IMG/VR virus record: IMGVR_UViG_3300032268_000887
Span: 38,687-102,686 of that record
Origin: a virus
Length of the DNA: 64,000 bases
Strand: one strand, 5' to 3'
The notes beneath the pieces were generated by a model. It saw only the letters and a program-made list of their open reading frames with translations, made no database searches and was not told the origin of the DNA. A program made the position numbers and the translations under genes. Shown here piece after piece: positions 43,502-58,832 of this stretch; positions within the stretch are counted from its first letter, which is position 1, and each line of letters opens with the position of its first letter.

Positions 43502-44146
43502 TTATAATAATGGGATCCATGGGATACCTGGATCATGTATTGCCTTACTTAGTGGAACAATATTAAAAGCAATGGTTATTCTTGGCTTGTCAAATGGCCA
43601 GGTATCTACTCCATGGTGGTAACCATTTAAAGAAAGAAGTATTTTTCCATTTTTGTTTTCATGTGCAAATAAAACATCGTGATCTAATTTATAAACTGTA
43701 GAGTTTGGCTCAGCATCAATTGCGTAATACCCATGAAACTCTGTTGGATCGCTACCGTGATCATCGTAAGCAATTTGTCCTGGTGTAACCACTTTAGGAC
43801 CTTTAGTATAATTAATCCAAGCAGACATGTAGTATTTTTCTTTTGCATAGTCAATTTCGTAATAATCGCAAGCCTCAATTACTAAATTTTTAACTAAAAG
43901 CATTACGTCATGCATTCTTGTATCCATAAAATTTAAAAAATTATAAGATTTTTGAAACGCTTGCATTTTTTCAGCATTATCTTTTTTGTACTCGATTGCG
44001 TCTCCAGTTATTTGATCTGTAGTAGACTTTAAATATTTCCAAGTTTCTTCTATAAAATTTCTTAACCCTGGATCATTTCTGTAAATTTCACCAGTAAAAA
44101 ACTTATGTGGCTTCCCAGTTTTTTCTAACATTGTTTGATTTGACAT
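43502..44146 (-). CDS. 2OG-oxygenase-like protein, tandem copy 3
   Basis: A 214-residue member of a three-gene paralogous array. It keeps the FHGYYAIDAEPNSTVYKL strand, the GYHHG pair and the PRITIAFNIVP strand seen in its two neighbours, and the C-terminal WIPL. The first iron ligand region reads DDHGSD instead of WHEHGG, so ligand geometry may differ. I use the ATG at 44146 with AAAGGAGATAAA just upstream; the frame runs to a GTG at 44197 overlapping the previous gene. This is the most divergent copy. Confidence 0.65.
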   Translation of the reverse strand: MSNQTMLEKTGKPHKFFTGEIYRNDPGLRNFIEETWKYLKSTTDQITGDAIEYKKDNAEKMQAFQKSYNFLNFMDTRMHDVMLLVKNLVIEACDYYEIDYAKEKYYMSAWINYTKGPKVVTPGQIAYDDHGSDPTEFHGYYAIDAEPNSTVYKLDHDVLFAHENKNGKILLSLNGYHHGVDTWPFDKPRITIAFNIVPLSKAIHDPGIPWIPLL

Positions 44147-44178
44147 TTTATCTCCTTTTTTATTATTATTTTTGCTGT

Positions 44179-44841
44179 CTAGGTTAGTGGTATCCACTTA
44201 TGTGGATCAAAATTTAACATGTTTTTTGCTGGAGATATGTCATAGGCAATAGTTATTCTTGGTTTATCTTCAAACCAATCATCTCTTCCATGTGGATGAC
44301 CAGTCTCTGACAGAATAGCCCTATTATTTTTGTTGATATTTTCAAAAATTTTGTCATCTTCTGCATCTATTTTATAAAATGTTGAAGAGGGTTCTGCATT
44401 AACACAGTAGTATCCATGAAACCAAGGAGCGCCCATGCCACCAGAATGATCATGAAAATGATGTGGATTTTTTAATGGATTTACGCCTCCATTATCTTTT
44501 TCTGATTTTATGGTTTTATAATCTAAATTAAACCAACCATGTATAAAATATTGCTCATTTTCAAAGTCTATGTCGTAATAATTGCACGCTTCTTTTGCCA
44601 ATTTGGAAAGTGATTTATACAGATTATGTATGGCTGGATGCGTAAATGTAAAAATATTATAATGATCTATTCCAAAAATTGTAACAGCGCCTGGATTATT
44701 TTTATGCTTTAAAAATAAATCATTGGGGATGCTGCAAATATTATCTTTTACAATTTTTTCGTTTAACTGTGTTAGATATTCAAAAAGACTATCTAAATTA
44801 TTATCAACATATGTATCAAAGAATTGATGTTTTTTTTTCAT
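44179..44841 (-). CDS. 2OG-oxygenase-like protein, tandem copy 2
   Basis: A 220-residue paralogue of its neighbours. Core motifs are HFHDHSGG, APWFHGYYCVNAEPSSTFYK, ETGHPHGRDDW and PRITIAYDISP, followed by C-terminal WIPLT. The HxH and GHxH elements plus the Arg of PRITIA suit iron and co-substrate binding in a phage oxygenase family like 2OG-FeII_Oxy_5. The ATG at 44841 overlaps the upstream stop as ATGA. Function unknown; a protein or glycan hydroxylase is plausible. Confidence 0.68.
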   Translation of the reverse strand: MKKKHQFFDTYVDNNLDSLFEYLTQLNEKIVKDNICSIPNDLFLKHKNNPGAVTIFGIDHYNIFTFTHPAIHNLYKSLSKLAKEACNYYDIDFENEQYFIHGWFNLDYKTIKSEKDNGGVNPLKNPHHFHDHSGGMGAPWFHGYYCVNAEPSSTFYKIDAEDDKIFENINKNNRAILSETGHPHGRDDWFEDKPRITIAYDISPAKNMLNFDPHKWIPLT

Positions 44842-45485
44842 GCTAGAGGAATCCAATGTTGCTCCCAGTCATACATAACCCCTTTAAAAGGAATAACATC
44901 ATACGCAATGGTTATTCTTGGACCAGCCCAATCCCAATCAGCCATAGCATGAGGATGTCCAGTTTCAGAAAGAATAGCCCTATTGTTTTTATTTATATTT
45001 TCAAAATCTTTATCAAATACTTTATAATGAGTTGTTGATGGTTCTGCCTTTACAGAATAATACCCGTGAAACCATGGAGCGCCCGAGCCACCATGCTCGT
45101 GCCAATCAAGTTTTCCAGTATGGCTATAATTAACATTAAACCAGCCTTGTACCCAAAAATCTTCTTTTTCAAAATCAAGATTATAATGTTTGCAAGCCTC
45201 AACAGTCATGTCCCTTACTGATCTAAATAATTTATGAATTGCTGGGTGATAAAATTGAAAAACATTATATTTATTCCACTTGCTTGTAGTTATACTTCCG
45301 GAAGAATCCCAAATAGTTTTTTCGCCTTTGTCATCTTTTAATATTTCGCCATTTTTAATACGTTCAGACTGTGCAATTAAAAAATTTGATAAATTGTCTA
45401 AGTCAGAGTCTAAAGTCCTTTCAAAAAATTTATGAGGGACGTCTTTATTTTGACTAGTACTTTTTAAAGGAACATTTTCGTACAT
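44838..45485 (-). CDS. 2OG-oxygenase-like protein, tandem copy 1
   Basis: A 215-residue protein, first of the three-gene array. Candidate iron ligands are His129/His131 (WHEHGG) and His177 or His179 (TGHPHA), with Arg190 in GPRITIAYD as the likely 2-oxoglutarate binder. The C-terminus reads HWIPLA, matching the WIPL ends of copies 2 and 3. GGAGATTAA precedes the ATG and TATACT lies about 20 bases further up. The array lies directly behind a Hint-domain repeat protein, a possible substrate. Confidence 0.7.
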   Translation of the reverse strand: MYENVPLKSTSQNKDVPHKFFERTLDSDLDNLSNFLIAQSERIKNGEILKDDKGEKTIWDSSGSITTSKWNKYNVFQFYHPAIHKLFRSVRDMTVEACKHYNLDFEKEDFWVQGWFNVNYSHTGKLDWHEHGGSGAPWFHGYYSVKAEPSTTHYKVFDKDFENINKNNRAILSETGHPHAMADWDWAGPRITIAYDVIPFKGVMYDWEQHWIPLA

Positions 45486-45533: not shown

Positions 45534-46766
45534 TTACTTATTGTGTACTAAATAGTCTCCAGCAACAAACCAGTCCTGTGGCTCACAGTTAAACTGATAA
45601 ACGGTATGATTTTCATGAATTGTGTCGATAGTAACTATTGGGCATTCAAGTAAAGACCCATCTTCATTTACCTTAATCAATATATCTTCAGTAACAATTG
45701 ATGTTGTAGGAATAATCATGTAAGATCCTTCTCTTTTTATAAACATTGGCTGTGTAGCAGAATATTTCTTTTCTATTTCTCCATTAAAATAAATTACTTG
45801 TCCTTTAACACTTGGAACAATATTAACTACTTCAACTTCAACTAGTCCTTCTGAGGTTAAAGATGAAGATGTAAATCCAGAGTAGTCAAAATCTCCAGAA
45901 CTTTCAAGTGTTGGTATTTCAGAAATACCTAATGAAACTATTGTATCTCCAACATTAACGTCTTTAGCAGGAACTAAACCATTTGGTGTTCTAATTAATG
46001 TGTCCGCTTCAATACATGCACCACCACCCTGTGAAAATCCATATGGAGTGAAACCAAATGGCGTAAAACCAAACGGTGTAAAACCAAATGCTCCGAATGG
46101 TGTAAAGCCAAATGCTCCGAATGGTGTGAATCCAAAAGCACCGAACGGTGCGAATGAGAATGGTGTAAATGAGAATGATGTTACTGATCCTGAATTAGAA
46201 GATGTACCTGAATTACCATTAGCGTTAGTTGCATAAACGTTGTATGTTTGTGCTGTTCCCGCTTCTTGCGCTACAGTAACAGATGTTCCTCCCTGTGTTC
46301 CTCCCTTGCCATCGCTAGATGCCCAGGTGTAAGAAGTAATAGCACTTCCACCAGTTGCTGGTGCTGACCAGGAAACGTCATCATTTGCTGCTGCACCTTG
46401 TGCAGTTGCGCTAGGTGCTGATGGAGTTGCAGGAACTGTTGTTGCAGTTACTGGGCTGCTTGCTGAACTTGCTGCCGATGTTCCATAAGCATTAGTTGCA
46501 GTTACTGTAAATGTATAAGCAGTATCACTTGATAAACCTGTAACCCGAATTGGAGAACTCGAGCCAGAAGCGGTGTAATTTCCTGGGGTTGATAAAACTG
46601 TATAAGAGGTTGCAGCATTTCTTGGGTCTGCAGTGAAGGAAACATCTACAGCACCATCATCATATGGACGAGCAGTTCCAACATTGGATGCAGAATTAAT
46701 TGTTGGTGCATATGGCATTAAAAAGTCATTAGCACCTTGCGATTTACGACCACTTCTTTTACTCAT
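45534..46766 (-). CDS. FnIII + FTPFG-repeat + Hint self-processing protein
   Basis: A 410-residue virion-type protein in three parts. Residues 20-110 and 112-196 are two fibronectin III-like domains. Residues 197-245 are a Phe/Pro/Gly tract built from FTPFG/AFG units. Residues 251-410 are a Hint (intein/hedgehog-like) domain: Cys251 opens CIEADTLI, block VGDTIVSL follows, SATQP stands at the usual block B place, and the chain ends FVAGDYLVHNK with His408-Asn409. Cys and His-Asn are what such domains need for thioester formation and cleavage. There is almost no C-terminal extein, so hedgehog-like release or attachment is likelier than splicing. GGGGAGAAGAG precedes the ATG. Confidence 0.82.
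   Translation of the reverse strand: MSKRSGRKSQGANDFLMPYAPTINSASNVGTARPYDDGAVDVSFTADPRNAATSYTVLSTPGNYTASGSSSPIRVTGLSSDTAYTFTVTATNAYGTSAASSASSPVTATTVPATPSAPSATAQGAAANDDVSWSAPATGGSAITSYTWASSDGKGGTQGGTSVTVAQEAGTAQTYNVYATNANGNSGTSSNSGSVTSFSFTPFSFAPFGAFGFTPFGAFGFTPFGAFGFTPFGFTPFGFTPYGFSQGGGACIEADTLIRTPNGLVPAKDVNVGDTIVSLGISEIPTLESSGDFDYSGFTSSSLTSEGLVEVEVVNIVPSVKGQVIYFNGEIEKKYSATQPMFIKREGSYMIIPTTSIVTEDILIKVNEDGSLLECPIVTIDTIHENHTVYQFNCEPQDWFVAGDYLVHNK
46032..46178 (-). repeat. coding tandem repeat (FTPFG/AFG units)
   Basis: Imperfect 12- and 24-base units inside the Hint protein gene, coding for FGFTPFG and FGAFGFTPFG. Third-position differences between units show selection on the peptide. A similar array lies at 56337-56462. 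Confidence 0.85.
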
Positions 46767-46810
46767 AAACTCTTCTCCCCTTATTTATTAATTTTTTTAC
46801 TGTCTAACAA

Positions 46811-48313
46811 TTACGCTGTAAGATCTCCAAAGGCTACCCAAACGTTTGTATCACGCTTAAATAGTGTTGCAGATGACCACCGTGTACGAAGTTTTAGTCC
46901 AGGAGTAGCATTTACTGTTACTCCGCCTGCGCCAGCAAGAGTAACCTGTCCGACATTTGTTTGAAGAATATCTATGGTTGTTCCTATTGGATATGGGACT
47001 GAAGCGTGTGTTGGAATTGTGATTGTTTTTCCATCTGCATGACTTACCTCAATTAATGAATCTCTTTCGCTAAGAAGTGAAAGTTCATAATTATCTGTTT
47101 TTGGGATAATGTTTGTCCGTGAAGGAACGCCTTCTTTAGTCTGAGTTCCGTCTGTATAAGCAATACCATTTGCTGCAACAGTTACAAGACCTGTAAATGT
47201 AGGGGAAGCAAGTGGTGCCTTTAATGCAATTGAGTTTGCAGTTGTTGCTGCAAAGTTTGCGTCATCACCAAGTGCTGCTGCAAGTTCATCAAGAGTATTT
47301 AGAAGTCCTGGTGCAGACTCAGTTAATATAGCAATTTCTTGCTGCACAAACGCTGTAGTAGCAATCTGTGTTGTATTAGTTGCTGTATTTGCTGTTGGTG
47401 CAGTTGGAGTACCAGTAAGTGCTGGTGAAGCCAATGGTGCCTTAAGGTCAACAGAGGCCTGACTTGCTAATAGGCCAAGATCTGTTGTAAGGTTTGCGAT
47501 ATGAGATTGAGCAATGTTGTTTGCTAATTTAGCATCTGTTACTGCTCCATTTGCAATTTTTGCTGTTTCTACAGAGTCGCTAGCAAGTTTTGCTGCTGTA
47601 ACTGCTGCATTTGCAATCTTTCCTGTCTCTACTGCATCAGAAGCAATCTTTGCTGCTGTTACTGATGCTGATGAAGGAGTTCTTTCATCTGAAAGACGTG
47701 AATCGTTTGTGTAAACAAGGTTTAAGGTATTTGAGATACCATGAACGCTTGTGTTTGCTGATGAGTGACTTGATAGCGAGTTAGAAACTGCAGTAAGGTC
47801 TTCATCATAGACTAGGTTAAAGACGTTTGAAATACCATGAACGCTTGTATTTGCTGCAATGTGATCGTTTACGTCACCGCTAAGTTCTGACAAGGTGTTG
47901 GCATTAGTAGTTACAGTGTTTGACAGAGTAGAAAGATTATTAGCCAAAGCATCATTAGTAACACCTTGCGCTGTTAAAGTATTTTGTATGCTTGCAAAAT
48001 TATTGCTAATTGAATTTGCAAAAGATGGGTCATCGCCAATTGCTGCAGCAAGTTCATTAAAAGTATTTAAAGTGTTTGGTGCTGCGTCAATAATTGCGTC
48101 AATTGCAGAAGATACAGCGGCTGTTACTTCTGCTGAATCCATGACGGTTGATGCGTCTACGAAATATGTTAGGCTTGTGTATGCAGTGCTTCCGTTACCT
48201 ACTTTAAACTTATTGGTATCTGTTTCAAAACCAATTTCTCCTGCGCCCAGTACTGGATTTGCTGCAGTCCATTGTGCTGCTGTACCTCTGCGCTGTTGCA
48301 TTCTAGTTGCCAT
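46811..48313 (-). CDS. tail fibre protein with C-terminal beta module
   Basis: A 500-residue fibre. The N-terminus (MATRMQQRRGTAAQWTAANP) is the standard opening of phage fibre subunits, then come Ala/Ser/Thr/Asn-rich repeat segments (NELAAAIGDD, DELAAALGDD, ALKAPLASP). The last 100 residues (SLIEVSHADGKTITIPT to VWVAFGDLTA) form a compact module also found at the end of the protein encoded at 56696-57316. AGGAGGAAATG precedes the ATG. It is followed by a Hint protein, as is the other module-bearing gene. Confidence 0.8.
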   Translation of the reverse strand: MATRMQQRRGTAAQWTAANPVLGAGEIGFETDTNKFKVGNGSTAYTSLTYFVDASTVMDSAEVTAAVSSAIDAIIDAAPNTLNTFNELAAAIGDDPSFANSISNNFASIQNTLTAQGVTNDALANNLSTLSNTVTTNANTLSELSGDVNDHIAANTSVHGISNVFNLVYDEDLTAVSNSLSSHSSANTSVHGISNTLNLVYTNDSRLSDERTPSSASVTAAKIASDAVETGKIANAAVTAAKLASDSVETAKIANGAVTDAKLANNIAQSHIANLTTDLGLLASQASVDLKAPLASPALTGTPTAPTANTATNTTQIATTAFVQQEIAILTESAPGLLNTLDELAAALGDDANFAATTANSIALKAPLASPTFTGLVTVAANGIAYTDGTQTKEGVPSRTNIIPKTDNYELSLLSERDSLIEVSHADGKTITIPTHASVPYPIGTTIDILQTNVGQVTLAGAGGVTVNATPGLKLRTRWSSATLFKRDTNVWVAFGDLTA

Positions 48314-48360
48314 TTTTCATTTCCTCCTGGGGGTTATGGGTATAATTATAACAGATTATT

Positions 48361-48816
48361 TTAGTTAAAATTATCTATTGCTGTTCCGCCATCATACGTT
48401 AATGTCCAAGATGATGTTGATGGTGACCCTGCATCTTGTGGTGTTCCTTGTGGTGCATTATAGAATCCACTACTTATAAATTGACTGACTATAAAGCCAG
48501 TTCCATCTATTGCTGTATCGTGAATGTGATCTGTTAGTGTTTGTGTGTCATCAATTGATGCAATTGTAATCCAAGAACCATTGTAATAAACGTTGGCTCG
48601 AGATGTTAACGTATCAAACCATAGTTGTCCATTTGTTGGAGAAACGGGGGCAGTTGATGATGCTGGCATTGAGCCAACTGCTGAATCAACATATGCTTTA
48701 GTGGCTGCATGGGTGCTTTCAGTTGGAGTTCCAACTACTACAGCATTTCCAAAACTACCGCCAGCAGTAACAATAAGGCCATTTTTGATCTTAAAGTCTT
48801 TTTCTACTGTTGCCAT
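48361..48816 (-). CDS. short tail fibre protein
   Basis: A 151-residue fibre component. Its start (MATVEKDFKIKNGLIVTAGG) matches that of the next gene (MATVTKDFKVKYGLIVEGAT), so they share an attachment domain. It has THAATKAYVDSAV, a frequent fibre motif, then LWFDTLTSRANVYYNGSW, a small beta domain typical of fibre tips. GGGGGAGATAA precedes the ATG. Confidence 0.75.
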   Translation of the reverse strand: MATVEKDFKIKNGLIVTAGGSFGNAVVVGTPTESTHAATKAYVDSAVGSMPASSTAPVSPTNGQLWFDTLTSRANVYYNGSWITIASIDDTQTLTDHIHDTAIDGTGFIVSQFISSGFYNAPQGTPQDAGSPSTSSWTLTYDGGTAIDNFN

Positions 48817-48845
48817 TTATCTCCCCCGTTTTTAGTTATTTTTTA

Positions 48846-50321
48846 TTACGCTACTAGTGTTCCGACAACTGTTACTGTTGAACTGTTATTAGCAGTTGTT
48901 ACATTGAGTCGGACATCTGCTCCTGAAATACTTGCTGAAATTGTTGATGCTGAACCATTGGTTCCAACAATTGCGTATTCAGTGATTGCAATGTTATCTG
49001 AAGTATCAAGTGTCAAAAGAACCTTTGAGATTTCAGTGTGTGCTCCATAAGCAACCTTTACAAGGTATTCTGCTGAACGGTATGTAGCCTTTGCAAAAGA
49101 ATGTGCTACTTGAATTCCTGCTGTTGGTGCTGATAGTTGTGCTGCAACCTGCTTAGCAACTGTGTTTAACTCAACTGCTGTAAATTTTGGAACAACTGCT
49201 TCAAGAGCAGATACTGCACGAGCATTTGAGAAGTAAAGATTTGAAGTTCCTTCTGACAAATCATCAGTATCAGAATCTCCTACACCGTTTTCAGCAGTGA
49301 TAGTAAGTCCTGAACCTGAGCCTGTTATTGTGATGTTTGAAAGTGTTGCGTTAGTTAAAAGATCTGCTGCTGCAGACTTTGAACGAGCATTTGAGAAGTA
49401 AAGGTTAGAAGCACCTTCTTCAATATCGTCTGTGTCAAGTGCTGCGATTGCATTTGCTGCGGTTCCTGCTGCGTCATATGATGCTGCAGTTGCTGCTTGT
49501 GCACGAGCATTTGAGAAGTAAAGATTAGAAGCACCTTCTGAAACATCATCTGTGTCAAGGCTAGTTACAGAAATTGTATTTCCTGTAATATCAATGTTTG
49601 ACCCTGCAGTTAAAATGTTTTGCTTTAATGCAACTGAGTTAGCAAGTGTTACAGCAAAGTTTGCGTCATCACCAATTGCGTTTGCTAATTCATTAAGAGT
49701 ATTAAGCAAATCTGGTGCTGAATCAACAATTGCTGCTACAGCGTTGGCTGCTGCTTCATCTGCATAATCTTGTGCATCTGATAATGCATTTGCTGCTGCG
49801 CCTGCAAGATCGTATGATCCAGCAAGTGCTGCTTGGGCACGTGCATTTGAGAAGTAAAGGTTTGTTGTACCTTCTGTTAGGTCGTCAGTATCAGAATCTG
49901 CTACACCGTTTTCTGCAGAGATAGTAAGTCCTGAACCTGATCCTGTAATTGTAATGTTTGTTAGAGTTGCACCAGTTAAAAGATCTGCTGTTGCAGACTT
50001 TGAACGTGCATTTGTAAAGTAAAGGTTTGAAGTGCCTTCTGATAAATCATCAGCATCAAAGTTTGAAATGTCTGATACTTGACCAGTTACATCTCCAACA
50101 AGATCTGCTGTTATTACATTTGCAGCAAAGTTTTTGTTGCCATCACGAAGTACAATAGAGTTTGCTACTGATGCTGAGTTTGCTACTCCGCCAACAAGTC
50201 CCTGTATGTAAGTTGTGTCTCCTGCTGATTTTGTAAGAACGTCATTTCCGTTAACGGTTGCTGTAGCACCTTCAACGATTAGACCATATTTAACTTTAAA
50301 ATCTTTTGTTACTGTTGCCAT
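48846..50321 (-). CDS. repeat-rich tail fibre protein
   Basis: A 491-residue fibre. After the shared N-terminal attachment domain it carries five copies of a DTDDLxEGTxNLYFSNAR unit, separated by two near-identical TNITITGSGSGLTI segments and a central LNELANAIGDDANF repeat. The final 75 residues (SAEYLVKVAYGAHTEISKVL on) form a beta module related to that of the next gene. Such repeat shafts and a terminal domain fit a receptor-binding fibre. AGGAGATACAAA precedes the ATG. Confidence 0.8.
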   Translation of the reverse strand: MATVTKDFKVKYGLIVEGATATVNGNDVLTKSAGDTTYIQGLVGGVANSASVANSIVLRDGNKNFAANVITADLVGDVTGQVSDISNFDADDLSEGTSNLYFTNARSKSATADLLTGATLTNITITGSGSGLTISAENGVADSDTDDLTEGTTNLYFSNARAQAALAGSYDLAGAAANALSDAQDYADEAAANAVAAIVDSAPDLLNTLNELANAIGDDANFAVTLANSVALKQNILTAGSNIDITGNTISVTSLDTDDVSEGASNLYFSNARAQAATAASYDAAGTAANAIAALDTDDIEEGASNLYFSNARSKSAAADLLTNATLSNITITGSGSGLTITAENGVGDSDTDDLSEGTSNLYFSNARAVSALEAVVPKFTAVELNTVAKQVAAQLSAPTAGIQVAHSFAKATYRSAEYLVKVAYGAHTEISKVLLTLDTSDNIAITEYAIVGTNGSASTISASISGADVRLNVTTANNSSTVTVVGTLVA

Positions 50322-50336
50322 TTTGTATCTCCTAGG

Positions 50337-50783
50337 TTATGCCTTAAGTCCCATACGTGCGTAACGTACGGTGATCGGGCGGATTGATATGTCGGGATCT
50401 ACTGTTAAATAAACAGTGTTTCCACTTCTAGAGACGCTTATGGTGCCAATATTCCCATCATTGTCTATCGTGCCGTACTCGCTTACGGAAATGTCGCTTC
50501 CATCTACAAGTATTGTCATCTCTGTGGCATAAAATTTATTATCGCCAGCAGAAGTCTTTGAAATTGCTATCAGATATTTAACCATTCGCCATTCAGTTGC
50601 ACTGAAACTGTCTATTGTGGTTAAATTTTCAATACCAGTAATAGTATTGTCATTGTTACCCGCAGACCCTAAACTTGTTGCTTGGGATGCAGTAGTATCA
50701 ATAAGATTTATGTAATCGGCCTGTGTAGGGCGGTCACCTGTTTGAAACAAATTCTTTACATTTGGGATTGATATGATTGCCAT
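50337..50783 (-). CDS. tail-associated protein sharing fibre C-terminal module
   Basis: A 148-residue protein: an N-terminal helical part (RPTQADYINLIDTTASQATS) like fibre attachment regions, then a beta module (MVKYLIAISKT, EMTILVDGSDISVSEYGTID) that aligns by eye with the end of the 491-residue fibre. The start has TATAAT six bases upstream and no Shine-Dalgarno sequence, so it opens the fibre operon with a leaderless message. Confidence 0.65.
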   Translation of the reverse strand: MAIISIPNVKNLFQTGDRPTQADYINLIDTTASQATSLGSAGNNDNTITGIENLTTIDSFSATEWRMVKYLIAISKTSAGDNKFYATEMTILVDGSDISVSEYGTIDNDGNIGTISVSRSGNTVYLTVDPDISIRPITVRYARMGLKA

Positions 50784-50789
50784 GGCATT

Positions 50790-50795
50790 ATTATA
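50790..50795 (-). promoter_or_regulatory. -10 box for leaderless fibre operon
   Basis: TATAAT on the minus strand, six bases before the ATG at 50783. Confidence 0.6.
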
Positions 50796-50806
50796 ACATT
50801 ATTTTA

Positions 50807-51370
50807 TTACAGTTTTTCAATCCAAACCTGATAACCTTTTTGTAAAATTTTAATCTTAAGTTCGTTGTTTTTTAAAAATTTATCAATACCATTTAAAGGT
50901 TTTAAGTCAACATTTCGACTTGGGTGCTCCCATCCGTAATCATCAAAGGCAAGGATTCCTCCTGATTTTAAAAGCGGGAATGCTAAAATTGCATCATTAT
51001 AAACACCTTCTGCCGAATGATCTCCATCTATATATATAAAGTCAAACTTTGCATCAGAAGAAGATAGGTATTCTTTGCTATCTTTTTTGATCTTTATAGA
51101 ATTAGGGAACTGGCTCATTTTTTCATCATACATTGATTCAATTTCATCCCAGTCAAATTCTGTGTGAATTTTTTCTTTTGAGCCTTTCCAAGTATCTATG
51201 TCTGTAAGGCTTGATGCTTTGTCTGTTAATATATTTTTTAGCAGCCACTCAGAGCCATGGCCAAGGTATACCCCAATTTGTAAAAAGTTAACATCTGGAA
51301 GATCTTTATACTTGTTTAAAAATTTTTCAAATGTTGGAATGTTGCTAGAAAACCAATTTGGGTACTTCAT
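50807..51370 (-). CDS. class I SAM-dependent methyltransferase
   Basis: A 187-residue methyltransferase of the Methyltransf_24 style. The SAM-binding loop is VNFLQIGVYLGHGSEWLL, with FDFIYIDGDHSAEGVYNDA as the conserved acidic strand and GGILAFDDYGW as the next strand. GGAGGAATC precedes the ATG, which overlaps the glycosyltransferase gene by 26 bases. With two glycosyltransferases beside it, methylation of a sugar on the virion or cell surface is plausible (inference). Confidence 0.78.
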   Translation of the reverse strand: MKYPNWFSSNIPTFEKFLNKYKDLPDVNFLQIGVYLGHGSEWLLKNILTDKASSLTDIDTWKGSKEKIHTEFDWDEIESMYDEKMSQFPNSIKIKKDSKEYLSSSDAKFDFIYIDGDHSAEGVYNDAILAFPLLKSGGILAFDDYGWEHPSRNVDLKPLNGIDKFLKNNELKIKILQKGYQVWIEKL

Positions 51371-52094
51371 GATTCCTCCAATATTCTAAGGTCTGTTCTT
51401 TTGATGTTGTGTGAATAGAAAATTTACCAGTCTCTTCTGCTGTTTTATCAAATTCTAAATTAATTGAAGACCCATAATCCATTGTGTAAGTAAAAAGTGG
51501 AATAGATAAGGTTTTACAACCATCATATATCAGAATATCTGCTAATGCTGCTCGTGAAGTTGGCAAGACATATTTTCCATCAACAAAGTATTGTTTTAAT
51601 AGAGTCTCCGCCCTGCTTCTTTTAATTAAATAACATGCTGCAGACCAATCTCTTTTTTCTTTCATATGTAAGGATGGATTGACTCTATAGTTATGAATAA
51701 TGCAAAGTTGTAACATGTCATATGGTTTTTTTATTGATTCTACGAAATTAGAAAATTCAAAATTCCAAAAGTCTACAGTTTCTAGACTTAAATCGTCTTC
51801 AGTAATAATTGCATATTCAGAATCTGAAGTTTCTAGCCAATGTTTAATTGTTTCAAGATGCGAGATAGTTGCTCCTAATTCATTTTTTGCTAATTGAAGT
51901 TTATCTTTTTCAAAAACAATTTTATCAAAATCAAAAGTGTCACCATCATAGGCTGGAATAATTTTATAATCTTTTATTTCATACTTTTCAAAATGATTTT
52001 TTATATAGTCTAGCCTGTCTGACTTAGACTCAAGATTAATTACGTATATTGGGGACAACCCCTTTAATTTATTTAAACCAGTATGTTCCAGCAT
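51345..52094 (-). CDS. family 25 glycosyltransferase
   Basis: A 249-residue GT25-type transferase. It opens with IYVINLESKSDRLDYI, the usual first strand, has ELGATISHLETIKHWL and the IITEDDLSLE acidic motif that binds metal and nucleotide sugar. In bacteria such enzymes act in lipopolysaccharide synthesis and in animals on collagen hydroxylysine. The second role is of interest because the phage has a collagen-like protein and many hydroxylase-like genes. The ATG overlaps the upstream gene by 26 bases. Confidence 0.78.
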   Translation of the reverse strand: MLEHTGLNKLKGLSPIYVINLESKSDRLDYIKNHFEKYEIKDYKIIPAYDGDTFDFDKIVFEKDKLQLAKNELGATISHLETIKHWLETSDSEYAIITEDDLSLETVDFWNFEFSNFVESIKKPYDMLQLCIIHNYRVNPSLHMKEKRDWSAACYLIKRSRAETLLKQYFVDGKYVLPTSRAALADILIYDGCKTLSIPLFTYTMDYGSSINLEFDKTAEETGKFSIHTTSKEQTLEYWRNHEVPKLVF

Positions 52095-52782
52095 GGGACA
52101 CCCTCACATATGGCGCAAGATAAATTTTTCCACCACTTTCTTTCCATAGTTTGCAAAATTGATAATCTTCAGATAACAATCTTTCGCTTTCGTCATCAAT
52201 TGTTGTTTGCCAAAAATCATATATTGGGTCCCCAAAAACAATGCTACCAATCTGTGGCTGATCACACCTATATTGTTTGATATCTTTTTTAATTGTTTCA
52301 AGAACATTCCTGGATATTAACATTAAGCCAGTGCCCATGTAATCAACTTCTGCTATGGTATTTGGATTTTCTTTTAACATTTTTCTTTGTTCTTTATTCA
52401 TATTAACATTAAATATTGCAGTGTGCTCATCTAAATTTTCTTTACCATCTAAAACGGCCTTTTTTACTCTTGCCCAATTAATAGCCTTCATTGGTACTGC
52501 TGCGCCAATCAGGTCTACATTTTCATTTATCATTCTTACAACAGCCTGTGCGTCAAAACCTTGATCTGCATCTATAAATAAAAGATAGTCACTCATACTT
52601 CTTAAAAACATTTCTGTCAAAGTATTTCTTGCTCTGGTAATTAAAGACTCATTAGAAAGATCAATAAAATTAAGTTGATGTCCTGCATTAGAAACTGCTT
52701 GGGCCAACTGTAAAACACTTTTCATAAAAGCGCCACTACACATACCGCCATACATTGGCGTTGCCAAAGTAATATGAGCCAT
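52069..52782 (-). CDS. GT-A type glycosyltransferase
   Basis: A 237-residue protein with ITLATPMYGGMCSGAF at the start, SLITRARNTLTEMFL and the metal-binding YLLFIDADQGFD, then YMGTGLMLISRNVLE. This is the layout of a GT-A glycosyltransferase common in phages. AGGAGAACA precedes the ATG. It forms a three-gene block with the GT25 and the methyltransferase, placed within structural genes, so glycosylation of virion proteins is a fair guess. Confidence 0.75.
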   Translation of the reverse strand: MAHITLATPMYGGMCSGAFMKSVLQLAQAVSNAGHQLNFIDLSNESLITRARNTLTEMFLRSMSDYLLFIDADQGFDAQAVVRMINENVDLIGAAVPMKAINWARVKKAVLDGKENLDEHTAIFNVNMNKEQRKMLKENPNTIAEVDYMGTGLMLISRNVLETIKKDIKQYRCDQPQIGSIVFGDPIYDFWQTTIDDESERLLSEDYQFCKLWKESGGKIYLAPYVRVSHAGTYWFK

Positions 52783-52793
52783 TGTTCTCCTAT

Positions 52794-52994
52794 CTATAAA
52801 ATGTAGTTACTATACCCGATTACTTGTAGTGGAATTGGAGGTGGGTTTCCTGGACCAAACCCTTCAACACCAATACTTGTAAAGCGAACTCTAAAAGGTA
52901 ATACTTCATTTATTAAAATAATTCTTGGATAATCTGCTAAATTGATTTTTTTTGCTTTTACAGATGTTTTGCTTTTTAATACTGCAGTGGACAT
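52794..52994 (-). CDS. small conserved structural protein
   Basis: A 66-residue protein: basic N-terminus, then YPRIILINEVLPFRVRFTS and a Pro-rich GFGPGNPPPIPLQVIG. It starts with TAATG overlapping the gene before it. A 32-residue protein at 59585 occupies the same place after another Ig-like gene. Function unknown; the proline run could be a hydroxylation or binding site. Confidence 0.6.
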   Translation of the reverse strand: MSTAVLKSKTSVKAKKINLADYPRIILINEVLPFRVRFTSIGVEGFGPGNPPPIPLQVIGYSNYIL

Positions 52995-53404
52995 TAGTCT
53001 GTGACATCCTCAAGGACAACCAAACTTCCTTGAGCGACAGTCCAAACTTGAGCATTTCCTGCAGAGGACAGTTGTATGTCAAAAATATCTCCGGTTATCA
53101 AAGATACTGATTCTGCTGCTGTTAAAGAAACAGTAAACTCTCCTGGCAAATCATCTGCGTCACGAATTGGTGTTAATGCCATAATTGTTACAGCGTCATC
53201 TGTAATTTTTCCTAAATTTGCAGCAAGATTTGGACGTTTAATTTTCATTGCAATTGTCCAGTCTGCAATAGTCAAGGGACTCTTTGCATCATCGGTTACA
53301 TAAACTTTAAATGCTGAGGTATCCCCTTTTACAAAAGTCCAAACCACTGTTGGTGGTTTTTCTCCAACATCATATTCTTTATTTCTGCTTCTTGTTGTTG
53401 CCAT
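52994..53404 (-). CDS. baseplate-upper-protein-like (BppU-N-like) structural protein
   Basis: A 136-residue beta protein. WTFVKGDTSAFKVYVTDD is the hallmark RGDT/KGDT strand of the Ig-like BppU N-terminal domain, also seen in the genes at 58376 (YYRGDTHQF) and 59683 (IVRGDTCTL). Such domains assemble baseplates. TATAAT lies six bases before the ATG, so a leaderless transcript is likely. Confidence 0.68.
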   Translation of the reverse strand: MATTRSRNKEYDVGEKPPTVVWTFVKGDTSAFKVYVTDDAKSPLTIADWTIAMKIKRPNLAANLGKITDDAVTIMALTPIRDADDLPGEFTVSLTAAESVSLITGDIFDIQLSSAGNAQVWTVAQGSLVVLEDVTD

Positions 53405-53410
53405 GATTTA

Positions 53411-53416
53411 ATTATA
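53411..53416 (-). promoter_or_regulatory. -10 box for leaderless baseplate gene
   Basis: TATAAT on the minus strand, six bases before the ATG at 53404. Confidence 0.6.
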
Positions 53417-53420
53417 ACAC

Positions 53421-53951
53421 TTAAAGTCCGTTTTTAACAGCACCCCAAGTGGCATTTCCTCCTTTGATAGGCGAAACTAATATTTTTCCATCTGTTGCAT
53501 GTGAATATGAAACAACCCCGACAACTCCAGAACCATCTGTTGGGCGAGTATCGGTTAGTCCACCAGAAGCGCCAATATAAAGTTTGTCTCCTTCAGAATA
53601 TGTGGAGGTATTGATATTTTCTAAAACTCCAATTGTTACTACAACTCCTTCTTGCCCATCTAAAATTTGAGCCTTTGTCAAACCAACACATGGGAATGTA
53701 TTAATATCATCAGACTCACATTTTTCAACAGTTGCCTTACCACTAGAGTATCCAGTTATATATACGGGAGTTCCTTTTATTAATGTTGCCCCGCTTATAT
53801 TTTTTACATCAAGAGATAAATAAGGGACCTGTAGGGCAGTAAGTAAGTCATTTACCCTTTCTGCCAATCCCTGCATATCAGAATGAACGTTTACTGGATC
53901 ATCTGACAGCGGATATGGTATTAATTGCGGAGTTGTTGAACCTGATGCCAT
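53421..53951 (-). CDS. putative tail/capsid decoration protein
   Basis: A 176-residue beta-rich protein with VKNISGATLIKGTPVYITGY, VVTIGVLENINT and YSEGDKLYIGASGGLT. This pattern is frequent in phage fibre-attachment and decoration proteins. It opens a minus-strand operon with TATAAT eight bases before the ATG. The lysozyme gene diverges from the same region. Confidence 0.6.
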   Translation of the reverse strand: MASGSTTPQLIPYPLSDDPVNVHSDMQGLAERVNDLLTALQVPYLSLDVKNISGATLIKGTPVYITGYSSGKATVEKCESDDINTFPCVGLTKAQILDGQEGVVVTIGVLENINTSTYSEGDKLYIGASGGLTDTRPTDGSGVVGVVSYSHATDGKILVSPIKGGNATWGAVKNGL

Positions 53952-53959
53952 AATTTTAT

Positions 53960-53965
53960 ATTATA
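53960..53965 (-). promoter_or_regulatory. -10 box for near-leaderless gene
   Basis: TATAAT on the minus strand, eight bases before the ATG at 53951, back to back with the plus-strand lysozyme promoter. Confidence 0.55.
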
Positions 53966-53984
53966 CCACTAAAAGCATTGGGGG

Positions 53985-54014
53985 TTGACAAAAACAGTTT
54001 GAGGTTGCTATAAT
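53985..54014 (+). promoter_or_regulatory. sigma-70-type promoter of lysozyme gene
   Basis: TTGACA (53985-53990), 18 bases, TATAAT (54009-54014): both hexamers are perfect. Transcription would start near 54021, giving a 40-base leader. Confidence 0.8.
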
Positions 54015-54022
54015 TAAGTTAT

Positions 54023-54040
54023 TGACACCGAAAGGTGTTA
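54023..54040 (+). promoter_or_regulatory. 5' leader hairpin with GAAA loop
   Basis: ACACC-GAAA-GGTGT (extendable by a wobble and an A-T pair) lies at the predicted 5' end of the lysozyme message, 11 bases before AGGAGG. It could stabilise the message or time translation. Confidence 0.5.
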
Positions 54041-54060
54041 TTTTACTTATAGGAGGATCT

Positions 54061-54588
54061 ATGAATAAAGAAGATTTTATTACTGGGATTGCCGGAAGTT
54101 TTATTGCTGCTGTGGTTGGTTTAACTGGGGCTAATGCAGATCTAAAAGAAATTGTGCCTGTAGAAACGGCAAATGAAAAGGCTGAGTCAGGAACTCCCTC
54201 CGCAATAAAAACAAAATATGCCAACGTTACGACCTTGTCAGATAAAGAATTAAAGAGTTTGTTAAAGGCGGTTGGCTTTGAAGGACAAGGTTTAAAAATG
54301 GCATGGGCGGTTGCTAAAAAAGAAAGCAATGGCAGACCTTTAGCCTTTAATGGCAACAAAGACACTGGGGACCATTCATTTGGAATATTTCAAATTAATA
54401 TGAATGGAGAGTTAATGGAAAGTAGATTAGAGAAATTTGACCTTAATTCTGTTTCTGATCTTTTTAATCCAGTAACTAATGCGGAGATTGCATTTTATAT
54501 GACAAAAGGTGGAAAAGATTGGTCATCATGGACCTATCTTGATGGGGAAAGAATTAAGCAGTTTTTGGCTAAATATCCAACGGTTTAA
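54061..54588 (+). CDS. lysozyme-like transglycosylase (endolysin or virion enzyme)
   Basis: A 175-residue peptidoglycan-cleaving enzyme. After a hydrophobic N-terminus (residues 7-26, FITGIAGSFIAAVVGLTGAN, ending near an Ala-x-Ala site, so a signal peptide or signal anchor) comes a goose-lysozyme/SLT-like domain: Glu88 in VAKKESNG is the likely catalytic acid, followed by SFGIFQINM (106-114). AGGAGG lies five bases before the ATG; the open frame extends upstream only through the promoter leader. It is alone on the plus strand with its own strong promoter, and converges end to end with an oxygenase gene. Confidence 0.82.
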   Translation: MNKEDFITGIAGSFIAAVVGLTGANADLKEIVPVETANEKAESGTPSAIKTKYANVTTLSDKELKSLLKAVGFEGQGLKMAWAVAKKESNGRPLAFNGNKDTGDHSFGIFQINMNGELMESRLEKFDLNSVSDLFNPVTNAEIAFYMTKGGKDWSSWTYLDGERIKQFLAKYPTV

Positions 54589-55197
54589 CTAAAAATAGCC
54601 GACTAAGCAATATTTTTTTCCAGAAACAACTTCTTCTTCTTTGTGTTGATATTGATTGCTAGATGGAAAAATTAAAACATCTCCCTGCTCTATGCGAAGT
54701 GGCTCATTGCCAAGCCTATCTTTAAAATAAAACTCTCCACCAACATAATCATTGTTAAGGCCAATAATTATTGTATATTTATTTTTAGATCCATCTCTAT
54801 CGATGTTGTTGTGAAAAACATTTGACTCTTTTTGTAAGCATATAGTCCAATCTTTTACTCCCTTAATTTTTAATTCCAAACTATCAACATAATCTTTTAT
54901 AAAATTAAAAGCATAAAAAGTAATTAAACTTTTTAGTTTGCATGTTTCGTAATAGCGTTTTGTTTCTTCTGGATTGTTGTTATTTATAATTTTTTCTAAA
55001 TTATATGTACCAGATTTTAAATAGAAAACTTGTTTGTCTAAAGTAAAATCAGTATCTCTTATATTTGACTTTGAAGAAATCTCCCAAACATTTCCATCTA
55101 TTGCTGCGCTTTCAATACTCTCTAAATTTAATAAAAAATTTGGAACATTATTGTTTTTATATAAAAATATATCGCTATCTAATTGTTTTTTTATCAT
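54589..55197 (-). CDS. prolyl-4-hydroxylase-like 2OG oxygenase
   Basis: A 202-residue protein whose C-terminal half has the P4H pattern: VFHNNIDRDG, TIIIGLNNDYVGGEFYFKD, GDVLIFPSSNQYQHKEEEV, KKYCLVGYF. The distal His is present; the HxD site reads HNN and the usual Arg is Lys, so activity is possible but not certain. It stops one base from the lysozyme stop and starts two bases after a degenerate Hint gene. Of all the oxygenases here it is the most P4H-like. Confidence 0.65.
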   Translation of the reverse strand: MIKKQLDSDIFLYKNNNVPNFLLNLESIESAAIDGNVWEISSKSNIRDTDFTLDKQVFYLKSGTYNLEKIINNNNPEETKRYYETCKLKSLITFYAFNFIKDYVDSLELKIKGVKDWTICLQKESNVFHNNIDRDGSKNKYTIIIGLNNDYVGGEFYFKDRLGNEPLRIEQGDVLIFPSSNQYQHKEEEVVSGKKYCLVGYF

Positions 55198-55198
55198 T

Positions 55199-55828
55199 TT
55201 ATATATTGTTTCCTAACAAGATCATATTTTCTGTTACATAGAAATTTCCATTAGATAAAGACATAGAAAATAATGGCATTTTGTTTGTTGCTAATAAAGC
55301 GGACTTTATTTGTTTGTCAAAAACAAAAAAGTTTTTAGTGTCTGTTTTAATATCTTTTTCTAAAGATATAAAATATTCAGGTTCTGGTTCAATATTAATA
55401 TTTAATTTATTAATATTTAATCTTGAAATCGTTTTTATTTTAACTATATTTTCATCTTTAATTTTACTGTCGTCTTTTCCCTTAGCAACAACATTGACAG
55501 TTAAGAATAACTGACTTTCGTGTACAAGACTAACATTATTATTTGCGTCAATAAGTGGGATAATTCTAGACTTATGTTGGCTATGGTGCCTGATGTCTGT
55601 AATGTGGGATGATGATATTTGCAACTGTTCTGGATTAATTTTTATTGTATTGTTATTAAAATATTTAAAATATGTATCTGCAGAACTATCTAGATCTTCT
55701 CCCAATAAATTAATAGATAAAATTTCATCACCAAACTTTAAATTTTCAATTTCAACTAATTCTCTATTTTTTAAATAAATTTTTGTTCCTATTGGAATAA
55801 ACCCGAACGCTTCATCATTTATTGACAT
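55199..55828 (-). CDS. degenerate Hint-domain protein
   Basis: A 209-residue protein that begins almost directly with a Hint-like block (GFIPIGTKIYLKNRELVEIE, then LKFGDEILSI) and ends FYVTENMILLGNNI. Aligned with the two intact Hint proteins, the first Cys is Phe or Ile and the penultimate His is Asn. No repeat or N-terminal partner domain remains. It is probably unable to self-process. The middle is longer and charged. It lies directly behind the intact Hint gene, suggesting duplication and decay or a helper role. Confidence 0.6.
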   Translation of the reverse strand: MSINDEAFGFIPIGTKIYLKNRELVEIENLKFGDEILSINLLGEDLDSSADTYFKYFNNNTIKINPEQLQISSSHITDIRHHSQHKSRIIPLIDANNNVSLVHESQLFLTVNVVAKGKDDSKIKDENIVKIKTISRLNINKLNINIEPEPEYFISLEKDIKTDTKNFFVFDKQIKSALLATNKMPLFSMSLSNGNFYVTENMILLGNNI

Positions 55829-55838
55829 ATAAAATTTT

Positions 55839-56696
55839 CTACTTATTATGTACTAGATAGTTTCCGGCAACAAACCAGTCTTGTGGTTCGCAACCAAACT
55901 GATAAACTGTTGCATCCTCTGTTAAATAATCAATATTTAAAATTTCTGTTTCTAGCAATTGTCCATCTGGATCAATAGAAATTAAAAAGTCTCCAACTTC
56001 TATGGCACCAGAAGGAATTATTTCATAATAAGTATTTCTTTTAATAAAAAATGGCTGAGATGTAGAAAATAGTGCAGAATTATCTTGATTAAAAAACAGC
56101 AAACTATTTTTTACTGATGGAAGAATGTCTACTATTGTGGTAAGAGTTTTTTCTTGTACCGTTAATGTTGATGATATAAAACCAACATAGTCAAAATCTG
56201 ATCCACCATCTATTCCGGCATTTGGAATTTCGTCAAAAGAGACAGAAACAATTTCATCCCCAACCTGTAAATCTTTTGCCTTTATTTTTCCACTTGAAGT
56301 ATCAATTAATGTATCTTCGTGAACGCAAGACGGTGGAGAAAATGTAAATGGCCCTGGAGTAAAACCAAATGGGGTAAATCCAAATGGGGTAAAACCAAAT
56401 GGGGTAAAACCAAATGCTCCAAACGGAGTAAAACCAAATGCTCCAAACGGAGTAAAACTAAAAGTATAATTTACTAGGTTAACATTTGTTCCAATAGCCT
56501 GAACTTCTCCTGCTGCAATACTTTGAGTTTTAATTGTATTGTTTTGCCCAGCATCTGTTGTATTTTCATTTGTTGTATTATAAACAAAGCCAGCATTGGT
56601 TAAATTTGTCTCTGCAGTAGTTTTTGCAACCCCAACTACGTTTGGGACTGAGTTTTTACGTGATCCCTTATTTCCACGGCCAATATTTTTTGCCAT
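55839..56696 (-). CDS. PASTA + FTPFG-repeat + Hint self-processing protein
   Basis: A 285-residue protein. Residues 17-76 are a PASTA-like domain (VPNVVGVAKTTAETNLTNAG), known elsewhere to bind cell-wall material. Residues 79-120 are FTPFG/AFG repeats. Residues 124-285 are a Hint domain opening CVHEDTLI at Cys124, with VGDEIVSV, then STSQPFFIK, and ending CEPQDWFVAGNYLVHNK (His283-Asn284). The end is nearly identical to that of the protein at 45534. The ATG at 56696 overlaps the upstream stop (TAATG). Confidence 0.82.
   Translation of the reverse strand: MAKNIGRGNKGSRKNSVPNVVGVAKTTAETNLTNAGFVYNTTNENTTDAGQNNTIKTQSIAAGEVQAIGTNVNLVNYTFSFTPFGAFGFTPFGAFGFTPFGFTPFGFTPFGFTPGPFTFSPPSCVHEDTLIDTSSGKIKAKDLQVGDEIVSVSFDEIPNAGIDGGSDFDYVGFISSTLTVQEKTLTTIVDILPSVKNSLLFFNQDNSALFSTSQPFFIKRNTYYEIIPSGAIEVGDFLISIDPDGQLLETEILNIDYLTEDATVYQFGCEPQDWFVAGNYLVHNK
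56337..56462 (-). repeat. coding tandem repeat (FTPFG/AFG units)
   Basis: Array of 12- and 24-base units coding for FGFTPFG and FGAFGFTPFG between the PASTA and Hint parts, similar in peptide to the array at 46032-46178 but differing at silent sites. Confidence 0.85.
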
Positions 56697-57316
56697 TATG
56701 CAACCAAATCTCCCATAGCAACCCAAGTGTTTGCTGCACGTTTTACAATCGTTGCGCTAGACCATTGTGTTCTAATTTTTAATCCAGGGGTGGCATTTAC
56801 TGTTACCCCACCTGCACCAGCAATTGTAACTTGAGATGAAGATGTTTGCAAAATATCAATAGCGGTGCCAACTGGGAAATTAAATGTGGCGTCTGCGGGA
56901 ATTGTTAAGGTTCCGCCAGCAGACATTTCTATCATCTTAAAAGAATCTGATTCCACAATAGTGTAAGAAGATGCTTGTGGATTAAAAGTGTATAGAGGGT
57001 CTACTATTGATAGCCAGGCTGTTCCATCATAAACTTGTAAGTCATTTATAACATTTCCGTTAGCATCTTGTTTTAAAAATACAACAGTTCCATAAATTGG
57101 TGTAGCAATTGCTGCAATTCTTGCTGCTGGGTTTAAAAAGATATTAACATTTTTTGCAACTACGGTAGAGTTTAAAGATACAGTAGAGTCAAATGTTTGT
57201 GCTGCAGTCCAAGTATATGCTGATGCTGTGTTTACTTTTCCCGCAAGTTCATACCACTGATCAGTAGCCTCATCATAAACATATCCTGGTCTTGGCGTTG
57301 AATTAAATGTTGGCAC
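56696..57316 (-). CDS. tail fibre protein with shared C-terminal module
   Basis: A 206-residue fibre. The N-terminus reads TFNSTPRPGYVYDEATDQWY. Then follow a linker and a C-terminal module (KMIEMSAGGTLTIPADATFN to NTWVAMGDLVA) matching the end of the 500-residue fibre at 46811, including AGAGGVTVNATPGLK. It starts at a GTG overlapping the upstream stop (TAGTG) and ends overlapping the Hint gene by one base. Confidence 0.72.
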   Translation of the reverse strand: MPTFNSTPRPGYVYDEATDQWYELAGKVNTASAYTWTAAQTFDSTVSLNSTVVAKNVNIFLNPAARIAAIATPIYGTVVFLKQDANGNVINDLQVYDGTAWLSIVDPLYTFNPQASSYTIVESDSFKMIEMSAGGTLTIPADATFNFPVGTAIDILQTSSSQVTIAGAGGVTVNATPGLKIRTQWSSATIVKRAANTWVAMGDLVA

Positions 57317-58761: not shown

Positions 58762-58832
58762 CTTTGAGTGAAGGAATCGAACCTTCATTATCAGGTTCGG
58801 AACCTGGAGTCCGACCATTAGACGAACTCAAA
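58762..58832 (-). tRNA. tRNA-Arg (anticodon CCG)
   Basis: Minus-strand cloverleaf: acceptor arms TTTGAGT/ACTCAAA pair fully, the T arm is GAAGG-TTCGATT-CCTTC, and the anticodon loop TTCCGAA on a CAGG/CCTG stem gives anticodon CCG for codon CGG. No CCA is encoded. It stands between two structural genes. Confidence 0.88.

Follow-up and report, generated by a model that had tools for sequence, protein, structure and literature searches.

What does a phage do with a phenylalanine-rich repeat protein that ends in a Hint domain and is encoded between a tail fibre and a set of oxygenases? The question is raised twice in one window of viral DNA (64,000 nucleotides; bases 38687-102686 of the 102,686-base IMG/VR record IMGVR_UViG_3300032268_000887), in which an initial annotation had placed two loci with the order fibre, FTPFG-repeat Hint protein and oxygenase. 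Both loci are real, with all of their genes on the minus strand and at the places assigned to them. Our answer, which is evenly poised between belief and doubt, is that they serve to mature a tail adhesin with enzymes of the phage's own, and we infer both hydroxylation and Hint trimming of its aromatic tail. Sequence and structure prediction show the anatomy: fn3 or PASTA domains, an aromatic tract predicted to be disordered and usually a Hint domain make up the protein, a fibre gene stands directly before it, and genes of 2OG-oxygenase families come after it in the same orientation. On this anatomy the mechanism is proposed, and hydroxylation of the tract appears likely.

In the first locus, a long fibre gene (46811-48313, minus strand; Mtd_N N-terminus, Pfam E-value 2.1e-15; PHROG tail fiber, 1.8e-36) ends in a C-terminal module (about 46814-47083) that is common to the fibre of the second locus. 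It is followed on the same strand by the gene of FTPFG-Hint protein 1 (410 amino acids, 45534-46766) and by three oxygenase-like genes, oxyA3 (215 amino acids, 44838-45485), oxyA2 (225 amino acids, 44179-44856, with a TTG start or a later one) and oxyA1 (231 amino acids, 43502-44197, with a GTG start or a later one). Gaps of 44 and 48 bp and then two 19-bp overlaps separate these genes, a spacing that looks as in one operon. In the second locus, also on the minus strand, a short fibre (56696-57316; 3.6e-16 to PHROG minor tail protein) that has the same module at its end (about 56699-56968) is followed by FTPFG-Hint protein 2 (285 amino acids from ATG, 55839-56696, with an alternative TTG start at 56726), which consists of a PASTA domain (56472-56648), the tract (56340-56462) and a Hint domain (55842-56327; Cys124, ending in HNK). 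Next come a degenerate Hint-like gene without the nucleophile (55199-55828; neither Cys1 nor a His-Asn end) and a P4H-like 2-oxoglutarate (2OG) oxygenase gene (54589-55197; PF13640, E-value 3.7e-6; the score of 28.2 bits exceeds the cut-off of 27). The proposal that the cassette had been duplicated holds in part. The fibre ends (46% identity over 148 amino acids, E-value 2e-33) and the repeat-Hint genes are duplicated, the latter being paralogues with 51% identical Hint domains and different N-termini (fn3 plus a PKD-like domain below cut-off versus PASTA), whereas no similarity was found by BLAST between the P4H-like protein and oxyA3. Duplication of the whole cassette was ruled out for this reason.

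The expected co-occurrence of FTPFG tract, Hint end and downstream oxygenases was observed in many contigs of metagenomic phages, so that one condition set for refuting the interpretation, a lack of co-occurrence in relatives, did not hold. In IMG/VR, a DNA pattern for FTPFGFTPFG matched 93 stretches, and a search with the oxygenase family gave 461 relatives, the best 80 of which were used without deduplication. Tract open reading frames (ORFs) were chosen by a composition rule of our own and deduplicated by shared 5-mers. The deduplicated set of 94 includes loci found through oxyA, and only the pattern-found set is unbiased for the presence of oxyA. The window's own genome (L001-L003) was excluded from the tract counts. 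The unit counted is the tract gene, and some loci hold two of them (for example, two FYN genes share one oxyA in L155). In the pattern-found set (96 tract ORFs, 53 after deduplication, 36 of them with at least 3.5 kb of downstream DNA), oxyA was present within 3.5 kb downstream of 22 of the 36 tract genes, a P4H-type gene within 6.5 kb downstream, as far as the stretch reaches, of 21, and one or the other of 28; within 3.5 kb upstream, oxyA was never found (0 of 17). Similarly, the deduplicated set contained no oxyA within 3.5 kb upstream (0/47) or downstream on the opposite strand (0/80), and P4H-type genes lay within 6.5 kb downstream of 43 out of 70 tract genes and upstream of 1 out of 25. 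When approached from the enzyme, 64 of the 69 oxyA-found loci with enough upstream DNA had a tract gene on the same strand at most 3.5 kb upstream. Sixteen whole records had listed positions; in 14 of them, the first oxyA was at most 6.5 kb downstream of an exact FTPFG match, where uniform placement would give 2.2 (for G050, a nearer inexact tract in L109 was disregarded). The fibre end module stood directly upstream of the tract gene in 77 out of 83 cases. The association counts, apart from that for the oxyA-found loci, were deduplicated by protein with no phage-tree correction, and gene order conserved within one phage group can account for part of them.

Tract chemistry varied considerably among relatives. 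The 94 tracts include FTPFG, FSPFGVFG, FFGVFG, AFGAFG, FYHG/SHYAG and NFYNFYN types; the repeat unit is F[T/S/A]PF[G/S] or an aromatic variant, not the Gly-X-Y of collagen. The tracts are aromatic first. Adjacent repeat units gave a pS of 0.52 and a pN of 0.05 (with the F.PF frame fixed by the choice of units), and the repeat peptide is preserved while its DNA diverges. Proline, which had been proposed as the target of the oxygenases, could not be maintained as a general one: the same oxygenase family stands behind FYHG and FYN tracts, in which proline amounts to 2% or less. Exactly one oxyA followed each of the 16 FYHG/FYN genes with at least 6.5 kb of downstream DNA, and the presence of one trio-type enzyme there means that proline cannot be the sole target. 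Among proline-tract genes with the same reach that had any oxyA, 36 out of 43 had two or more, and 10 further ones had none. The Fisher test for one versus more oxyA by tract type gave a P-value of 2e-9, which is inflated by shared ancestry, and since all FYHG/FYN genes were reached through the oxyA search, only the number of oxyA and not its presence is informative for them. A quick tree, in which branches were long, placed 33 rows in the oxyA2-type clade (SH-aLRT 93, not starred): 32 came from proline-bearing tracts and one was unlabelled. The clade contained no FYHG or FYN enzyme, and these enzymes grouped with the oxyA3 type. L005 carries five PF13640 genes, each scoring over the cut-off, in the 5.3 kb downstream of a FFPPFFP tract that has a Hint domain. 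On the basis of oxyA number by tract type, the composition of the oxyA2-type clade and the PF13640 set of L005, we read the oxygenases as probably doing two jobs, one common to the tracts and one linked to proline.

The assignment of the trio to 2OG oxygenases comes from structure prediction. The AlphaFold2 model of oxyA3 (alignment with 87 other rows) had a predicted local distance difference test (pLDDT) score of 93.8 and matched the uncharacterised bacterial structures 3bvc (VIA Z 16.2) and 2rg4 (Z 16), as well as PHD2 and the P4H of P. putida (Z 13.3 each) and chlorovirus vCPH 5c5t (12.2). The model thus has a double-stranded beta-helix 2OG-oxygenase fold, which is also predicted for oxyA2, a homologue of oxyA3, and for oxyA1, a divergent one, by homology (oxyA2 and oxyA3 are 36% and 30% identical to oxyA1, respectively). 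At the sequence level, no member of the trio matched Pfam or NCBIfam over the cut-off (one chance-level Pfam match, E-value 0.13), NCBIfam likewise gave nothing over the cut-off for the Hint domain, and no match to oxyA was found in a PDB sequence search. Among PHROGs, oxyA1 matched phrog_2696 (unknown function, 6.4e-10) and, weakly, phrog_81 (2OG-Fe(II) oxygenase, 0.0077). In 88 aligned oxyA sequences, the candidate metal/2OG residues H129, H131, H179 and R190 were conserved in 86, 87, 87 and 87, respectively.

The protein carrying the tract was modelled in the same way (alignment with 63 other rows; mean pLDDT 87.3, predicted template modelling score 0.49). Two fn3-like domains at residues 20-181 (46224-46709, minus strand; Pfam fn3, 3.3e-7) are predicted as beta-sandwiches, and tandem fn3 structures matched this N-terminal part (for example, 6tpv with VIA Z 14.7 and a root-mean-square deviation (rmsd) of 3.7). 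The aromatic tract at residues 198-244 (46035-46175, minus strand) is predicted to be disordered, with pLDDT below 50 over residues 211-247, which include most of it. The Hint domain extends from Cys251 to the last residue and ends in His408-Asn409-Lys410 (45537-46016, minus strand). Its closest structural match was 6y75, a bacterial intein-like (BIL) domain (model range 246-410; VIA Z 17.5, rmsd 2.0 over 136 residues), followed by 2lwy (BIL, Z 17.4) and hedgehog 1at0 (Z 17.2), with inteins also matching at a Z of about 17. It should be noted that the first 50 Foldseek rows for the full adhesin were fn3 or other muscle/receptor chains and that the Hint match surfaced with VIA-align; a PDB sequence search with the Hint domain gave one match, which was unrelated (E-value 0.23). 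Cys251 aligned with residue 1 of the Hint fold. Structure prediction and sequence conservation both speak for a Hint fold whose first residue is a nucleophile; Cys251, Cys124 (ATG numbering) and the His-Asn ends of the window copies had been assigned correctly. An intein was ruled out, as the protein has no C-extein (one Lys after His-Asn).

Conservation of the Hint active site was analysed in 76 domains, including both from the window. Residue 1 was Cys in 26 and Ser in 49 of them, 75 in total. The block-B motif of Hint domains is T/S-x-x-H. Members with Cys1 had a His-Asn end in 23 of 26 cases and the block-B His in 6; all 49 members with Ser1 had the block-B His, 48 had Asp replacing the Asn, and none had a His-Asn end. 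The impression that the Hint domain is degenerate in most relatives was overturned by this alignment, which showed the conserved Ser1/His set. That two distinct active-site sets have been conserved speaks for activity at the N-terminal junction and against decay. What follows the tract was also recorded: among 92 deduplicated genes with the stop in view, it was a Hint domain in 74 and a stop codon within 25 amino acids in 18, and nothing else was observed. Twelve of the 18 Hint-less proteins end in Arg, and oxyA was found downstream of both kinds (47/62 Hint-bearing and 15/18 Hint-less genes, in a set that includes oxyA-found loci). Since Hint-less relatives encode the tract as C-terminus directly, removal of the Hint domain would give the same C-terminus. 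The end pattern fits this expectation, as if the tract were meant as the C-terminus and the Hint domain were a removable follower; the Hint end itself is real, and trimming of the protein by it is probable.

It might be argued that the Hint domain does not cleave and instead serves as a structural cap or an intramolecular chaperone, so that the sticky aromatic tract stays soluble during assembly. The lack of the block-B His in 20 of the 26 Cys1 members, window copies included, the lack of the C-terminal Asn in all 49 Ser1 members, and the additional gene at 55199-55828 without nucleophile speak for this possibility. We consider it unlikely, as Cys or Ser at residue 1 in nearly all domains is hard to reconcile with a pure cap and one group of tract proteins ends at the tract without any Hint. 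An iterated hidden Markov model (HMM) of the degenerate Hint-like family found 15 ORFs in 14 of 98 loci, with two of these loci being the window's own and two of the ORFs encoding FTPFG-Hint proteins; its homologue in L042 matched Pfam Hint at 0.0016, below cut-off. A secreted protein resembling a polymorphic toxin, with Hint releasing a C-terminal toxin, was also considered. Hint domains are known in such proteins, and those with a HINT pre-toxin domain carry the toxin domain after it. In the window copies a single Lys follows His-Asn and the Hint-less relatives end at the tract, which makes this explanation hardly credible, and it was discarded because nothing lies beyond that Lys.

Several observations weigh against a maturation cassette. 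Eight of the 36 pattern-found tract genes had no oxygenase of either HMM nearby (the alanine-rich L015, L028 and L090, and also L039, L051, L052, L056 and L083); the difference in oxyA presence between alanine-rich and other tracts was not significant (1/5 versus 21/31, P-value 0.064). Conversely, oxyA occurred without a nearby tract in G024 (L180), L126, L127, L150 and L151. All FYHG/FYN genes were obtained by searching with oxyA, and they form few lineages. Window oxyA1 has Asp instead of the conserved H129, and both window Hint copies have Gln at the expected block-B His (SATQ and STSQ). The metal motif of PF13640 is HxD...H; in the window's P4H-like protein it is HNN, as compared with HDD or HND in the nearest kin, with the distal His kept, and two further kin (L020 and L064) do not have the motif His. 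We would therefore not regard the enzyme of the second cassette as an ordinary active P4H, as had been supposed; it may be inactive or have a changed metal site. Four further PF13640 matches were present in the window's record outside the cassette (G000:C1:4864-5166 and 5621-5875, plus strand; 10446-10706 and 14949-15200, minus strand). Finally, the loci may all come from a single broad group of phages, and shared gene order would then inflate the counts.

Two explanations build on these points. First, the oxygenases might be metabolic or host-takeover genes that share a late operon and act elsewhere, by draining 2-oxoglutarate or on nucleotides, lipids, other fibres or a collagen-like protein. 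Tailed phages are rich in 2OG-Fe(II) oxygenases (14 of 16 cyanophage genomes in the excerpted text of PMC3037559), PF13640 genes lie elsewhere in these records too, some oxyA loci have no tract, and the window contains a collagen-like gene. We regard this explanation as doubtful, if still a serious competitor: in the deduplicated set oxyA follows the tract on the same strand and was never found within 3.5 kb before it, its number tracks tract type, and collagen-like ORFs were present in just 11 of 178 loci (the loci being short stretches), a figure that led us to reject collagen as a general substrate. Second, fibre, tract gene and oxygenases might be neighbours through the conserved tail-gene order of one broad phage group. 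This agrees with the recurrence of a ribonucleotide reductase (RNR) gene and of a gene for a protein of about 1,240 amino acids downstream, and with the same fibre module preceding most tract genes. It is improbable in our view: tract chemistry, N-terminal domains, Hint type and oxygenase number vary but the tract-then-oxygenase order stays, and the second window cassette and L005 keep this order with P4H-type genes replacing oxyA.

Some of the loci without the usual arrangement should be described here. In L180 (G024:C1:50500-62500), two oxyA genes occur with DUF6065-like and P4H-like-looking genes, downstream of genes for a Pro-rich protein of 694 amino acids and for one whose N-terminus is signal-like, and no aromatic tract was found in this locus; it is possibly a variant with another substrate. 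In L150, oxyA adjoins RNR-like and WhiB-like genes (named by eye) with no tract nearby. By eye, one to three copies of DUF6065-like genes lie between the tract gene and oxyA in several loci. Matches to DUF6065 in L037 (4421-6652) had E-values of 0.0016 and 0.031, below cut-off, and the gene at L129:6470-7191 had no match. These genes possibly encode further modifying or assembly proteins.

We also investigated the host and distribution of the cassette. The window phage looks like a siphovirus-type tailed phage, based on genes for a PhageMin_Tail tape measure, a portal protein and a DNA polymerase. A WhiB gene was identified in the window's record (E-value 2.1e-11) and in 8 others of the 22 records tested, and Corynebacterium alone gave a match among 14 control genomes; thus, the host of these phages is likely actinobacterial. 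Searches by tblastn with Hint1, oxyA3 and two other oxyA proteins gave no match in 50,697 GenBank phage records, and no relative of oxyA was found in 84,980 prokaryote species genomes (pattern-seeded; 25 stretches). The cassette therefore seems confined to phages known mainly from metagenomes. In bacterial genomes, the FTPFG pattern was detected in one 3.2-kb contig of a Chitinophagaceae metagenome-assembled genome, whose fibre, tract-Hint, DUF6065-like-looking and RNR genes match the arrangement of this phage group.

If the cassette does mature an adhesin, the following order of events could be envisaged. The fn3/PASTA-tract protein would be a component of the virion, exposed at the fibre or next to it, and the downstream oxygenases would hydroxylate tract residues during infection. 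The oxyA3 type would modify something common to all tract types, and the oxyA2/oxyA1 types and P4H-type enzymes would modify the proline units (T/S-P-F). The Cys or Ser at Hint residue 1 would then break the bond after the tract, making the tract the C-terminus; alternatively, an amine or hydroxyl group might take over the acyl intermediate, fixing the tract to something. The exposed aromatic tail would adhere to the surface of the host, probably an actinobacterium, or insert into it. More tentatively, and in our view with less chance of being right, the system may resemble a ribosomally synthesised and post-translationally modified peptide line placed on a virion protein, with an aromatic repeat core (in which the units between Phe/Tyr are Pro, His or Asn), tail-matched 2OG oxygenases and Hint as a self-removing follower and perhaps a covalent fastener. 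Actinobacterial phages would exchange tail chemistry and enzyme set jointly, as a single module for host adhesion.

Virus-encoded hydroxylation of collagen is known from chlorovirus vCPH and from Mimivirus. The present system likewise has 2OG oxygenases encoded by a virus, and we propose that they act on a repetitive protein of that same virus; the system differs in that the proposed substrate is an aromatic tract and not Gly-X-Y, in its link to Hint, and in an oxyA trio without family match over the cut-off. FG-nucleoporin repeats are also disordered and Phe-Gly-rich, and here the likeness is an analogy only, as the setting differs. Cyanophage 2OG-Fe(II) oxygenases have been interpreted as part of modulating 2OG, and they belong to the same enzyme superfamily as oxyA and often occur several per genome; in contrast with oxyA, no fibre-tract link is reported for them in that excerpt (PMC3037559). 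A-type BIL domains have a Hint fold, Cys1 and a terminal His-Asn and occur in variable non-conserved proteins, according to the excerpted text of PMC7765530. The window Hint domains share these three features (HNK) and have BIL domains as their best structural matches; however, the phage domain sits behind an aromatic tract beside oxygenase genes, its block-B His is often Gln, and the larger sister set has Ser1 and Asp replacing Asn. Hedgehog proteins also carry a C-terminal Hint domain (Hog), which cuts itself off and hands the acyl group to a nucleophile (PMC7765530, same excerpt). Unlike Hedgehog, the phage protein has other partner domains, and its Hint domain aligns to the last residue, so that no sterol-recognition region follows. 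In excerpts of PMC3556154, PMC5259590 and PMC5526547, the Hint domains of phages are inteins in enzymes, such as terminase or ribonucleotide reductase, and no description of the tract-Hint-oxygenase combination was found among titles and abstract starts in open-access PMC. The components all come from known superfamilies; it is the combination, with an oxygenase number that tracks tract type and a possibly self-removing end, that we regard as new in its anatomy, and we give the mechanism proposed above about even odds. If this is true, tailed phages would use enzymes of their own to make post-translationally modified, self-trimmed adhesive tails; many phage 2OG oxygenases are unexplained, and some of them would gain a concrete substrate, while Hint domains would gain a new role. 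For any isolate, the prediction would be +16 Da steps on the Phe-rich tail together with a C-terminus newly formed immediately before the conserved Cys/Ser, and aromatic-tract/oxygenase pairs could mark adhesion specificity in uncultured phages.

Several other genes of the window are located close to the two cassettes. Between them, the minus strand carries a methyltransferase (PF13578, 1.3e-17), a family-25 glycosyltransferase (PF01755, 2.3e-12) and a second glycosyltransferase-like gene (50807-52782), relatives of which were present in 19, 19 and 21 of the 178 loci, respectively. Family 25 (GT25) includes collagen galactosyltransferases, and it is conceivable that hydroxylation would be followed by glycosylation through these genes. 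Near the second cassette, a collagen-like Gly-X-Y gene (58858-59580, minus strand; PF01391, 2e-5, below cut-off) might encode another oxygenase substrate. A lysozyme/transglycosylase-like gene on the plus strand (54022-54588; SLT_3, 4e-15) lies amid minus-strand genes and is convergent with the P4H-like gene, and a tRNA-Arg (CCG) was found between structural genes at 58762-58832 on the minus strand.

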